From assembly GCF_030645145.1 (NCBI RefSeq), contig NZ_JAUSMI010000085.1:1-42742 (forward strand): DNA of 42,742 nucleotides, written 5' to 3'. The translations under genes and the position numbers were made by a program. The notes beneath the pieces are model-generated. The model was not told the DNA's origin. It saw only the letters and a list, made by a program, of their open reading frames with translations, and did not search any database. This document shows, in pieces, positions 12,625-32,578 of this stretch. Origin of the DNA: Microcella sp. GTDB lineage: Bacteria; Actinomycetota; Actinomycetes; Actinomycetales; Microbacteriaceae. Position 1 is the stretch's first letter, and each line of letters begins with the position of its first letter.

Positions 12625-13301
12625 TGGTCGGCGCGCTGAGCCTCTACGCGCCGGGCACGAGCCCGCTGCACCGCCTGCCGGCGTCGACGAAGCTGCTCGG
12701 GCTGCTCATCGGTGGCCTCGTCGTCACCGTGCCGCGACCCGATGCACTGCTGCTCGGCATTGCGGCCGCCGGAGTGGTCGCGCTCTACCTCGTCGCCCGA
12801 CTCGGCCTCGCCGAGCTCGGCCGCCAGATCTGGGGAGTCCGCTGGATCATCGCGGTCGTCCTCGTGGGCCAGCTCATCTTCCTGCCCTGGCACGTCGCCG
12901 CCCTCACGAGCACGCGCATGCTGCTCGCCATCCTCCTCGCGGCGCTCGTCACGCTCACCACGCGGGCGAGCGACATCCTCGAGGCGATCGAGCGCGGGCT
13001 CGCGCCGTTGCGCCGATTCGGGCTCAGAACCGAGCGGATCGCGCTCGTGCTGGGAATGGCGATCCGTGCCGTGCCCATCGTGATCGATCTCGCTTCGGAG
13101 GTGCGCGATGCCCAGCGCGCCCGCGGCGTCGGCGGCAGCATCACGGCGATGGTCGTGCTGCTGCTCGTGGGCGCCCTGCGTCACGCCGACGATGTCGCCG
13201 ATGCCCTCGCCGCCCGAGGAATGGACGACGATGAGGAGCCGGTTATGCTGGAGGGCTCCGTGCGCCCGCGCGGAGCATCCCGACTGCGCCTACGGAGGTG
13301 A
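12624..13301 (+). CDS. bioN: Biotin ECF transporter transmembrane protein BioN (EcfT-type)
   Basis: This 225-residue membrane protein has about five hydrophobic helices, then a cytoplasmic helical region carrying two Ala-Arg-Gly-type coupling motifs (DAQRARGV and DALAARGM), which dock onto the ATPase in ECF T-components. It begins SLYAPGTSPLHRLPASTKLL, and the S-x-(L/H)-R-L-x-x-x-x-K pattern is the usual EcfT/CbiQ N terminus. It forms the transporter with BioM and BioY. Its stop is followed after 3 bases by smpB, so the biotin cluster may read into smpB. Confidence 0.92.
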   Translation: MVGALSLYAPGTSPLHRLPASTKLLGLLIGGLVVTVPRPDALLLGIAAAGVVALYLVARLGLAELGRQIWGVRWIIAVVLVGQLIFLPWHVAALTSTRMLLAILLAALVTLTTRASDILEAIERGLAPLRRFGLRTERIALVLGMAIRAVPIVIDLASEVRDAQRARGVGGSITAMVVLLLVGALRHADDVADALAARGMDDDEEPVMLEGSVRPRGASRLRLRR

Positions 13302-29136: not shown

Positions 29137-30183
29137 TCAGTACGCGGACTTGGTGAGCGTCGTCAGCAGCCGCTGGAGCGAGTCGAGACGCTGCGGGCCG
29201 AGCTCGCCGAGTTCGCCGCGCGCGGCCGCCTCGACGAGCTCGCAGTCGGGGGAGTCGGGCAGGTGCGTGCAGCCCCGCGGGCACGAGCGGGCGACCTCGG
29301 CGAGATCCTCGAACGCCGTGAGGATGCTGTCGGGGTTCACGTGCCCGAGTCCGAACGAGCGCACGCCGGGGGTGTCGATGATCCAGCCGCCGTCGGGCAG
29401 TCGGAGCGACACCGTCGAGCTCGAGGTGTGCCGGCCGCGGCCCGTGACGGCGTTGACGTGGCCGATCGCGCGCTGGGCCGAGGGCACGAGCGCGTTGACG
29501 AGGGTCGACTTGCCGACGCCCGAGTGCCCGACCGCGACGGTCGTCCGATCGCGCAGCAGCGCGTGCAGGGCATCGAGGGGCGGATGCTCGGCCGAGCTCG
29601 TGACGACGCGCACGTCGAGCCCCGCGAAGTGGGCGAGGAAGGCCGTGGGGTCGGCGAGGTCGGTCTTCGTCACGACGAGCAGCGGAGAGATGCCCGCGTC
29701 GAACGCGGCCACGAGGTAGCGGTCCACGAGCCGGGGCCGCGGTTCGGGGTTCGCCGCGGCGACCACGATCATGAGCTGGTCGGCGTTCGCGACGACGATT
29801 CGCTCGACGGCGTCGGTGTCGTCGGCACTGCGCCGCAGGAGGGTGCGGCGCTCGTGCACGCGGACGATGCGCCCGAGCGCGCCCACCTCGCCGCTCACGT
29901 CCCCGACGACGTCGACGCGATCGCCCGTGACGATCGCGGTCTTGCGCAGCTCGCGCGCGCGCGTGCAGATCACCGCGCGCTCGGTCGGCTCGCCCTCGTC
30001 GATGAGGGCGAGGTACCGGCCGCGGTCGACCGTGACGATGCGGCCGACGACGGCGTCATCGTGGGCAGGGCGCTGCTTCGAGCGCGGCCGGTTGGCCTTC
30101 GGGTTCGGGCGCGAGCGCACGGCCGACTCGTCGTACGCGCCGTAGGGCTCGTCCTCGTCGTCGTCGGGCGGAAGCCAGCTCAT
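29137..30183 (-). CDS. rsgA: Ribosome small subunit GTPase RsgA
   Basis: RsgA checks maturation of the 30S subunit and uses GTP. The circularly permuted order is visible: OB-fold (about 45-115), G4 TKTD (172-175), then G1 GHSGVGKST (219-227) and G3 DTPG (270-273). A zinc knuckle C-x3-C-x-H-x6-C uses Cys301, Cys305, His307 and Cys314. The N terminus has an acidic then basic extension. Start ATG 30183 overlaps the aroA stop (ATGA). Length 348. Confidence 0.95.
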
Positions 30184-31589
30184 GCGGAGTCGGACCCCGC
30201 CCGCGTCGAGGCGACGAGCCGCTGCCACAGCTCGGGGAACTCGGGCAGGGTCTTCGACGTCGCGCCGATGTCGTCGATGTCGATGCCGTCGACGGCGAGC
30301 CCGATGACGGCTCCCGCATGGGCCATGCGGTGATCCGCGAAGGCGCCCCAGTCGGCCCCGTGCAGGGCGTGCGGCTCGAGCGCGAGGCCGTCGTCGAGCT
30401 CGGTCGCGGCGCCTCCGACGCGCGACAGGTCGTCGGCGAGCGCGGCGAGGCGGTCGGTCTCGTGACCGCGGAGGTGCTCGATGCCCGTGATGCGGCTCGG
30501 CGAGTCGGCGAGGGCCGCGAGCGCGACGATCGCGGGGGCGAGCTCGCCGCCGCGCGAGAGGTCGAGCTCGACGCCCGGCATCGCTCGGCCGCCGAGGAGC
30601 CCCTCGCCGCCGTCGACGACGAGCGCGTCGCCCTCGCGGCGGACGCTCGCGCCGAAGCGGGGGAGGATGTCGATGAGGTCGGCGCCGACCTGCGTCGTCG
30701 TCTCGGGCCAGCCCTCGATCGCGACCGTGCCGCCCGCGACGACCGCGGCGATGAGGAACGGCGCGGCGTTCGAGAGGTCGGGCTCGATGTCGACGTCGCG
30801 CGCCGCGATCGGCCCGGGCGCGACGACCCAGACGCCCTCGTCGGGGCTCGAGACGGTCACGCCGCGCGCCGCGAGAGCGGCGATCGTCATCTCGATGTGC
30901 GGCATCGACGGCAGGCGCTCGCCCGTGTGCCGCAGGGTCAGACCCTCCGCGAAGCGGGGGGCGGCGAGCAGGAGGCCCGAGACGAACTGGCTCGACGCGC
31001 TCGCGTCGATCGCGACCTCGCCGCCGCGCACCGCGCCCGAGCCCCACAGGCTGAAGGGGAGCGCTCCGCGGCCGTCGTCGTTGACGTCGACGCCGAGCGC
31101 CCGCAGCGAGTCGATCGTCGTGCGCATCGGGCGCCGCCGCGCGGCCTCGTCGCCGTCGAAGGCGACCGGCCCGAGCGCGAGCGCCGCGACGGGCGGGAGG
31201 AAGCGCATGACCGTGCCCGCGAGCCCGACGTCGATGCTCGTCGAGCCGGTCAGCTCGGTCGCGGGCGTCACGCGCAGGTCGGGGCCGTAGGCGCCGTCGC
31301 CCGGCATCTCGTCGATTCCCACGCCGAGCGCGCGCAGAGCCGCGATCATGAGCGCCGAGTCGCGCGAGTGCAGGGGCCGGCGCAGCAGCGACGGGCCGTC
31401 GGCGAGAGCGGCGAGCACGAGCTCGCGATTGGTGAGGCTCTTCGATCCGGGCAGGGCGAGCCGGGCATCCAGCGGGCCCGTCGCTCGCGGCGCGCGCCAC
31501 GGCCCCGCGTCGCCCGTCGGAGCCGAGTGGTCGGCGCGGTCGTCGTCGTAGGGGCTGAATCGGGGCGAGGAATAGCCGAATACCTGCAT
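30180..31589 (-). CDS. aroA: 3-phosphoshikimate 1-carboxyvinyltransferase (EPSP synthase)
   Basis: Catalyses the sixth step of the shikimate pathway, joining PEP and shikimate 3-phosphate. Conserved GSKSLTNR (48-55), [11 protein letters not shown] and ADHRMAHAG near the end carry substrate-binding residues. Length 469, with a 35-residue N-terminal extension common in actinobacteria. ATG 31589 follows a TACTCT -10 by 7 bases, so the message is probably leaderless. The divergent sigH promoter overlaps this start region. Confidence 0.95.
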
Positions 31590-31594
31590 CGGTT
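31569..31594 (+). promoter_or_regulatory. SigH/SigR-type promoter GGAAT-N18-GTT for sigH
   Basis: GGAAT (31569-31573) and GTT (31592-31594) are exactly 18 bases apart, the consensus of SigR/SigH-dependent promoters in actinobacteria. The start would be near 31600, followed by a GAAGGGAG ribosome site (31617-31624) before ATG 31632. Confidence 0.75.
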
Positions 31595-31596
31595 AC

Positions 31597-31602
31597 AGAG
31601 TA
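31597..31602 (-). promoter_or_regulatory. Leaderless -10 box (TACTCT) for aroA
   Basis: On the minus strand TACTCT ends 7 bases before the aroA ATG at 31589. It overlaps the predicted transcription start of the SigH promoter on the other strand. Confidence 0.5.
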
Positions 31603-31631
31603 TCGGCAGCACGAGCGAAGGGAGCCGCCGT

Positions 31632-32339
31632 ATGACGAGCGCCGTCCTCGAGCGGGTGAGCACCGCATCCGTCGACCCCGACGCCCGGCAGCGCACCGGC
31701 GCGACCCCGCAGGCGCCGGTCGTAGACTCGCTCCCGATGACTGACGAGCTCGCCGAGCGCCGCCAGCTGTTCCAGGAGCAGGCGCTCCCCTTCATGGACC
31801 AGCTCTACGGCGCCGCCATGCGCATGACCAAGAACCCCGCCGACGCCTCCGACCTCGTGCAGGAGACCTTCGTGAAGGCGTTCGCCGCCTTCGGCCAGTT
31901 CGAGCAGGGCACGAACCTCAAGGCGTGGCTGTACCGGATCCTCACCAACACGTTCATCAACGTGTACCGCAAGAAGCAGCGCGACCCCTACCAGGGCTCG
32001 ACCGACGAGCTCGAGGAGTGGCAGCTCGGCAACGCGCAGTCGGCGACGTCGAGCTCGAGCCGCTCCGCCGAGGCCGAGGCGATCGACCGGATGCCCGCGA
32101 GCGCCGTGAAGGACGCCCTCCAGTCGATCCCGGAGGACTTCCGTCTCGCCGTCTACTTCGCGGACGTCGAGGGCTTCTCGTACCAGGAGATCGCCGACAT
32201 CATGAAGACCCCCGTCGGCACCGTGATGAGCCGGCTCCACCGCGGCAGACGGCTGCTGCGCGAGCTGCTCGCCGACTACGCCCGCGAGCGCGGGATGACG
32301 CTGAAAGAGACCACCACCACTTCGAGGAGCACGACATGA
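31632..32339 (+). CDS. sigH: ECF sigma factor SigH/SigR (long form 235 aa; short form 200 aa from ATG 31737)
   Basis: A sigma-70 family group 4 factor with region 2 (about 60-130, [44 protein letters not shown]) and region 4 ([45 protein letters not shown]). It is the thiol-redox stress sigma factor of actinobacteria, held by the zinc anti-sigma RsrA encoded next. Two starts are supported: ATG 31632 with a ribosome site downstream of a SigH-type promoter, and ATG 31737 directly after a TAGACT -10. The first 35 residues are unrelated to region 2, as in the unstable long SigR isoform known in Streptomyces. Confidence 0.93.
31723..31728 (+). promoter_or_regulatory. Internal leaderless -10 box (TAGACT) for the short sigH form
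   Basis: TAGACT ends 8 bases before the in-frame ATG 31737, the same spacing as the other leaderless promoters here. It would give constitutive expression of the shorter sigma factor. Confidence 0.5.
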
Positions 32340-32578
32340 CCGACTGCGGCTGCGACCAGGCCAAAGCCGAGCTCGAGGAGTTCCTGCACAACGAGCTCAG
32401 CGCCGAGCAGTGCCAGGACATCCGCGACCACATGAGCAACTGCGACGACTGCTCGGCCGAGCATCTCGTCGGCCTCACCCTCACCACCAAGGTGAAGGAG
32501 GCCTGCCAGGAGAAGGCGCCGGACGAGCTCCGGGCGATGATCCTCGGCACGATCGAGAAGCTCGACTCGAAGGCCTAG
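32336..32578 (+). CDS. rsrA: Zinc anti-sigma factor, RsrA/RshA family (80 aa)
   Basis: ATG 32336 overlaps the sigH stop (ATGA). The ZAS motif H-x3-C-x2-C is visible as HMSNCDDC, with further cysteines at the N terminus (DCGC) and in the tail (EACQEK). In the family, reduced protein holds zinc and binds the sigma factor, while disulfide formation releases it. Length 80, slightly shorter than Streptomyces RsrA. It is followed by a strong hairpin terminator. Confidence 0.93.

Follow-up and report, generated by a model that had tools for sequence, protein, structure and literature searches.

A leaderless-type basal start within an extended sigH reading frame of Micrococcales: a probable variant of the SigR/SigR' scheme

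The sigH-rsrA locus described here lies on a stretch of 42,742 nucleotides (contig NZ_JAUSMI010000085.1, hereafter the window) from a 2.4-Mb Microcella-type genome (Microbacteriaceae) in 176 contigs. By sequence, the first gene encodes the SigH of the SigR/SigH family of thiol-stress ECF sigma factors: its product matched TIGR02947 (SigH_actino) with 306.5 bits (E 6.6e-92), above the curated cut-off of 251.55. The adjacent anti-sigma product contains H-x3-C-x2-C and matched TIGR03988 (antisig_RsrA) with E 2e-14 and 53.4 bits, which is under the curated cut-off of 62.5. A first-pass annotation had read the region as two promoters and two starts for SigH, arranged as in the SigR/SigR' scheme of Streptomyces. 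The features are collected in Table 1.

Table 1. Features of the sigH-rsrA locus and of the divergent gene (window coordinates)
Feature	Position	Strand	Remarks
p2, SigH/SigR-type promoter GGAAT-N18-GTT	31569..31594	+	read from sequence; putatively autoregulatory and stress-induced
p2 sub-elements	GGAAT 31569-31573, N18, GTT 31592-31594	+	read directly
Shine-Dalgarno GAAGGGAG of upstream start	31617..31624	+	read directly; duplex -7.9 kcal/mol
N-terminal extension of long isoform, 35 codons	31632..31736	+	start ATG 31632-31634; open, in frame
N-terminal extension motif	31632..31655	+	MTSAVLER here; L-[ED]-[RA]-(P) in relatives; counts in two locus sets
p1 -10 element TAGACT	31723..31728	+	housekeeping type, without conserved -35; conserved spacing; logo
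Predicted p1 5' end	31736..31737	+	putatively G 31736 (1-nt leader) or A 31737 (leaderless)
SigH short (basal) isoform, 200 aa	31737..32339	+	TIGR02947 SigH_actino match
SigH long isoform, 235 aa	31632..32339	+	upstream in-frame ATG
rsrA/rshA-type zinc anti-sigma gene	32336..32578	+	ATGA overlap with sigH; TIGR03988 antisig_RsrA
aroA, divergent	30180..31589	-	start codon inside p2; TIGR01356 aroA, E 5.7e-106
aroA -10-like TACTCT	31597..31602	-	7 nt before aroA ATG; overlaps p2 start region

The perfect GGAAT-N18-GTT, the ribosome site before ATG 31632, the TAGACT 8 bases before the in-frame ATG at 31737-31739 and the open extension of 35 codons between the two starts, all of them claimed earlier, were found in place when the sequence was read directly. 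The upstream promoter (p2), taken as GGAATA-N17-GTT, also fits the GGAAYR-N17-GTT given in the available text of PMC4803200. The window alone offers modest evidence: GGAAT-N17-19-GTT occurred twice against 0.44 expected, and two matches were reached in 6 of 100 shuffles. The second match, GGAAT-N19-GTT at 13218-13244, may be due to chance. The real support for the reading of p2 and of the downstream promoter (p1) comes from conservation, not from this count.

For p1, 119 genomes of the order were searched; 6 gave no sigH match at E 1e-40, and each of the 113 loci that were found, among them that of the window, entered the order-wide set. When spacings of 7, 8 and 9 were scanned with ATG and GTG as the only start codons, TAnnnT stood exactly 8 nt before an in-frame start in 111/113 loci, belonging to 18 family codes, and never matched at another spacing; the pair was absent in L111 and L116. 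The start codon was ATG in 109 loci and GTG in two (L092 and L109). Measured to a fixed point of the sigma domain, this start lay 33 to 117 codons away, thus shifting by up to 84, indicating that the pair of TAnnnT and start was held while the flanking sequence changed on both sides. TAnnnT is a motif of low information, and one might suppose that TAGACT is a chance hexamer and that sigH has the upstream promoter and start only. However, in ORFs of the background sequence given below, TAnnnT stood at spacing 8 before an ATG in 6/3687 cases by chance, and the same exact spacing in 111/113 loci rejects a chance origin. Nor was the fixed spacing just a matter of relatedness, because in 63 of the same loci the aroA-type hexamer of the divergent gene stood at spacing 7, 8 or 9 (10, 33 and 20 loci). 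We therefore regard a chance hexamer as extremely improbable. The observation of the first-pass annotation is confirmed, and this conservation makes it stronger than its reader could know.

As background for such starts we took 442,742 nt, that is, 400 kb of one genome of the same genus plus the window. TAnnnT-Nk-ATG was enriched at k=6 (39) and k=7 (28) and weakly at k=8 (8), with counts of 1 to 7 at the other spacings, indicating that starts next to TAnnnT form a genuine class in the genus; sigH, at spacing 8, is an unusual member of it. The base before the start differed as well: C was at -1 in 45/68 of the other TAnnnT-adjacent starts at k=6 and in 34/47 at k=7, compared with a pyrimidine-G directly before the p1 start codon in 91/111 sigH loci. 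Transcription usually starts at the purine of a pyrimidine-purine step. From this rule, the fixed 8-nt spacing and the pyrimidine-G, we predict that the message begins with G-AUG, its 5' end being the G one base before ATG and not the A. A Shine-Dalgarno of -5.5 kcal/mol or stronger was present at the p1 start in 6/111 loci (median -1.5), compared with 17% of random in-gene positions; at the window's own p1 start the value was 0.3 kcal/mol, or -3.1 when the stretch examined was widened slightly. With TAnnnT near the start and no strong Shine-Dalgarno, the sigH p1 shares the features of leaderless actinobacterial genes, at spacing 8 and not at the genus peak of 6-7. Thus the earlier claim of a leaderless basal message held for the type of start, while the exact 5' end is predicted one base further upstream. 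In the logo of 111 loci, covering 40 nt upstream of the -10, we found neither a conserved -35 nor an AT-rich WblC-type element at p1.

Upstream of p1, at a distance of up to 300 nt, GGAA[TC]-N17-19-GTT was found in 103/111 loci. Among the 8 loci without p2 in this range, L012 is cut by a contig end, L079 matches at -385, L086 and L109 have loose matches only, and L101, L103, L104 and L113 have none. An upstream start was counted when an ATG or GTG between p2 and p1 had a Shine-Dalgarno of -5.5 kcal/mol or stronger, at least 9 codons and a frame open to p1. Of the 103 p2 loci, 77 had such a start in frame with sigH, compared with 4 and 1 for the other two frames; the 4 are the fair control, because in the frame with 1 most -10 elements introduce a stop through their TAG. 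No ATG or GTG start reached the Shine-Dalgarno threshold in the other 26, and two of these (L066 and L098) lacked any in-frame start that would give 9 codons or more. The median Shine-Dalgarno of the upstream starts in 101 loci, each chosen as the best, was -7.9 kcal/mol. Internal starts without a Shine-Dalgarno are possible in actinobacteria, and ribosomes on the p2 message might also start at ATG 31737, so that a single protein is made and the upstream ATG is spurious. However, the in-frame bias (77 against 4 of 103), the strong Shine-Dalgarno at the upstream start and a motif kept at the protein level in the extension (see below) speak against it, and we consider a single protein quite unlikely.

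The extension was 9-82 aa long in 101 loci (quartiles 20, 25 and 35). Its pN/pS was 1.12 compared with 0.04 for the sigma body in 27 close pairs that are not independent of each other; codons 2-10 had 0.74 and the later codons 1.47. The N-terminus reads MTSAVLER here and MTSYVLERP, MATALLERP or MLATLERE elsewhere. L[ED][RA] occurred within residues 2-14 in 41/101 loci (shuffled mean 4.2, maximum 11 in 2000 shuffles) and, in a second set, in 31/61 loci (shuffled mean 3.1, maximum 9), with the comparison inflated by relatedness in view of shared genera and kinship. The pattern was chosen after the first set had been viewed; the second set shares genera with it, and 4 identical extensions were removed. 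Since the codons of the motif are mixed synonymously, the constraint acts on the protein. The same residues lacked L[ED][RA] in 60/101 and 30/61 extensions. A long conserved degron is unlikely, because the extension drifts and shows no purifying selection outside the N-terminal motif. This motif would be the sole candidate tag in the extension, and by the pattern used it is absent from over half of the first set. In an AlphaFold model built from a shallow alignment of 10 rows (mean pLDDT 62.8), where the entries L011 and L031 start too late, by 12 and 3 bases, residues 1-36 had pLDDT below 50 and the first helix started at residue 36, the p1 Met.

These properties of the extension bear on the main rival explanation, in which the extension is a bridge and not a degron, the long form being a by-product with the same activity and lifetime in a plain positive autoregulation. 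The -10 element of p1 and its discriminator fill the 14 bases before ATG 31737, leaving no place for a ribosome site there, so a leadered p2 message would need an upstream Shine-Dalgarno and an in-frame start for this reason alone. The p1 start under the Shine-Dalgarno threshold in 105/111 loci is consistent with such a bridge, and so are the variable length of the extension and its nearly neutral amino-acid change outside the N-terminus. Furthermore, an in-frame stop immediately precedes p1 in L101 and L113, two loci where no p2 was found. Against a pure bridge stand the N-terminal motif seen in two locus sets and the case of Streptomyces, where, according to the accessible text of PMC5472188, the extension destabilises the protein although the short form has its own ribosome site. 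We regard a pure bridge as possible, though doubtful.

The best reading of the sequences is that the locus carries a lineage-wide variant of the SigR/SigR' scheme. The anatomy, the order-wide conservation, the frame, the contrast in Shine-Dalgarno strength and the N-terminal motif are directly seen. On this basis, two nested promoters would drive sigH, p1, a -10 element for the housekeeping sigma factor, lying within the frame that encodes the long form. The p1 message would start at ATG 31737 or one base before it and give the 200-aa SigH without a ribosome-binding site. Oxidation of RsrA would free SigH, and SigH-RNA polymerase would fire p2 about 130 nt upstream; the leadered message would then be translated from the ATG 31632 led by its Shine-Dalgarno and yield a 235-aa SigH' carrying a disordered extension at its N-terminus. 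If SigR' of Streptomyces is a guide, this extension most likely targets SigH' to Clp-type proteolysis, and the amplified pool would be short-lived. The 5' ends, the SigH dependence of p2, the two proteins and the instability of the long form, with the transient feedback that the first-pass annotation carried over from Streptomyces, are what we infer here, so that its interpretation is supported in part. Taken as a whole, a two-isoform sigH switch like that of SigR/SigR', with a basal start that is leaderless or has a 1-nt leader and a Shine-Dalgarno-led long form most likely degraded by Clp, has in our estimate a probability of about 0.6.

A further idea, which we put forward tentatively, is that the stress switch of Micrococcales changes the translation mode of the sigma factor: basal synthesis would use only a message that is leaderless or has a 1-nt leader and would be throttled at initiation, and synthesis under stress would be led by a Shine-Dalgarno and give the product an order-wide N-terminal L-[ED]-[RA]-P tag that limits its life. 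Leaderless messages are sensitive to IF3. If the idea is true, leaderlessness would be this lineage's counterpart of the IF3-repressed GTC start of Streptomyces, keeping the basal sigma below its anti-sigma. The two-isoform switch, if true, would provide a natural, order-wide pair of a leaderless and a leadered message for one regulator, in which the role of leaderless translation in basal sigma synthesis could be tested. It would also offer a minimal candidate degradation tag, set by conservation within a drifting extension, for the isoforms of stress sigma factors, a class that to our knowledge is familiar in detail from Streptomyces only. For annotation, many genomes would confront gene callers with two real starts, of which they would have to pick one.

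The SigH-type sites elsewhere in the genome were also considered. In the whole genome of the strain, GGAAT-N18-GTT had 24 sites compared with 0 for the reversed pattern, and downstream proteins were identified for seven of the 24 besides sigH. Sites precede trxB, sufB, cysK and an LLM monooxygenase (TIGR03858); the other products were a second LLM-like protein under all cut-offs, one without NCBIfam match and a ClgR-like regulator (score 99.8, under the cut-off of 170). The occurrence of trxB, sufB, cysK and the ClgR-like gene after such sites is as expected of a SigR/SigH regulon, and the sites agree, weakly, with a SigH regulon that would reach Clp indirectly. Near clpP1 no SigH-type site was seen, and the 500 nt before clpP1 contained no ClgR-like box. 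In L252 and L259, which are luciferase-like (LLM) oxidoreductase genes, the SigH-type sites both end in CATGCGTT, and the sigH p2 has the close ending CATCGGTT.

On its other side, p2 overlaps face to face with the promoter of the divergent gene (31569-31602). In 63/103 p2 loci, the p2 spacer contained a divergent start codon at one fixed offset, a -10-like TAnnnT lay over the p2 start region, and the -35 of p2 doubled as codons of the divergent gene (YS in 54, NS in 5 and HS in 4 of the 63); the divergent gene was named aroA in the window only. By this arrangement SigH binding should shut aroA, and if so, thiol stress would be linked to the shikimate pathway.

In a second, named set, which holds the best 80 of 578 confirmed loci, the p1 motif was present in 62 of the 63 loci placed in Micrococcales by record title (with the unplaced actinobacterial MAGs assigned to this group) and in 1 of the 17 placed outside, a Sporichthya MAG. 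The single miss among the 63, Leucobacter L210, has a leaderless-type GTG at spacing 6; in L101, L113 and L210 no p2 was found and there was almost no room for an extension. In a phylum-wide set of 30 loci, taken from the 121 genomes that gave a match, TAnnnT-N8-start occurred in 0/11 loci of family code f21, 0/6 of f22, 0/1 of f23 and 1/1 of f24. We take f21 to be the Streptomyces type and f22 the Mycobacteriaceae type; two f21 loci (L230 and L233) carry TGTDAGTEH, as given for mature Streptomyces SigR in the available text of PMC5472188. These counts therefore do not support a leaderless layout common to actinobacteria in general, since it was absent from 11/11 f21, 6/6 f22, 1/1 f23 and 16/17 named loci outside Micrococcales.

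Sequences that may be traces of p1 were observed in the other types (L225-L237, L238, L242 and L244). The extension contains L-[DE]-W in each of the nine f21 loci inspected, and eight of them continue with x-[VI]-L; the Streptomyces-type extensions keep L-[DE]-W-x-[VI]-L, and Microbacteriaceae have, for example, LDWPV and then the p1 Met. TAGATT stands at V-D-L in two f22 loci, at a similar position, and in Mycobacteriaceae-type loci TAGACT or TAGATT lies nearby. The Streptomyces-type and Mycobacteriaceae-type traces may be remnants of one ancestral p1, and our guess is that the -10 element is older than its leaderless use.

According to the first-pass annotation, the leaderless version of the switch is, to its reader's knowledge, not described. 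We recognised no report of a leaderless SigR/SigH switch in Micrococcales in the literature searched; the founding SigR' paper was outside its scope, and absence from print is thus not established. On the other hand, the separate parts are already known from the portions of the papers available: two promoters with two isoforms in Streptomyces, and a leaderless promoter with isoforms for SigE of M. tuberculosis (PMC10027907). In Streptomyces, the gene has p1 and p2 promoters, and SigR' carries 55-58 additional residues, has a half-life of about 10 min and is a Clp substrate (PMC5472188, PMC4921905). The present locus resembles sigR-rsrA of S. coelicolor, as described there, in its orthologous ECF sigma factor, the adjacent zinc anti-sigma, the upstream SigR-type p2, the downstream p1 and the in-frame upstream ATG, which gives the longer form (SigR' in S. 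coelicolor). However, the short form of S. coelicolor uses a noncanonical GTC start with its own ribosome site and is repressed by IF3 (PMC5472188), whereas here p1 lies in the frame of the extension, 8 nt before an ATG without Shine-Dalgarno, and there is no leadered GTC start, a Streptomyces detail on which the scheme does not depend. The extensions also differ in sequence and in length (35 aa here and a median of 25 in 101 loci).

A second likeness is to sigE of M. tuberculosis with its P1, P2 and P3, also an ECF sigma gene with several promoters, one of them leaderless, and N-terminal isoforms (PMC10027907, PMC3898074). In the available text of these papers the leaderless P2 is induced, and oxidative stress leads to shorter forms from the internal, SigH-driven P3. 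Our reading of sigH has the reverse logic: the leaderless promoter would be basal and stress would give the longer form. The sigH gene of M. tuberculosis has two promoters as well, the upstream one recognised by SigH (PMC4921905), and in C. glutamicum sigH has three leadered starts 22, 89 and 93 nt upstream of the start codon, the SigH-type promoter described being that of rshA (PMC3489674). An extension isoform is unmentioned for either sigH in the text covered (PMC4921905, PMC3489674). Finally, p1 is like the leaderless actinobacterial genes with TAnnnT next to the start, where the -10 hexamer stands beside the start codon and a Shine-Dalgarno is absent, in the available text of PMC3160421 and PMC3898074. 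It differs from the TAnnnT-adjacent starts of its own genus, which have spacings of 6-7 and mostly C at -1, in its spacing of 8 and its pyrimidine-G, from which a 1-nt leader is predicted.
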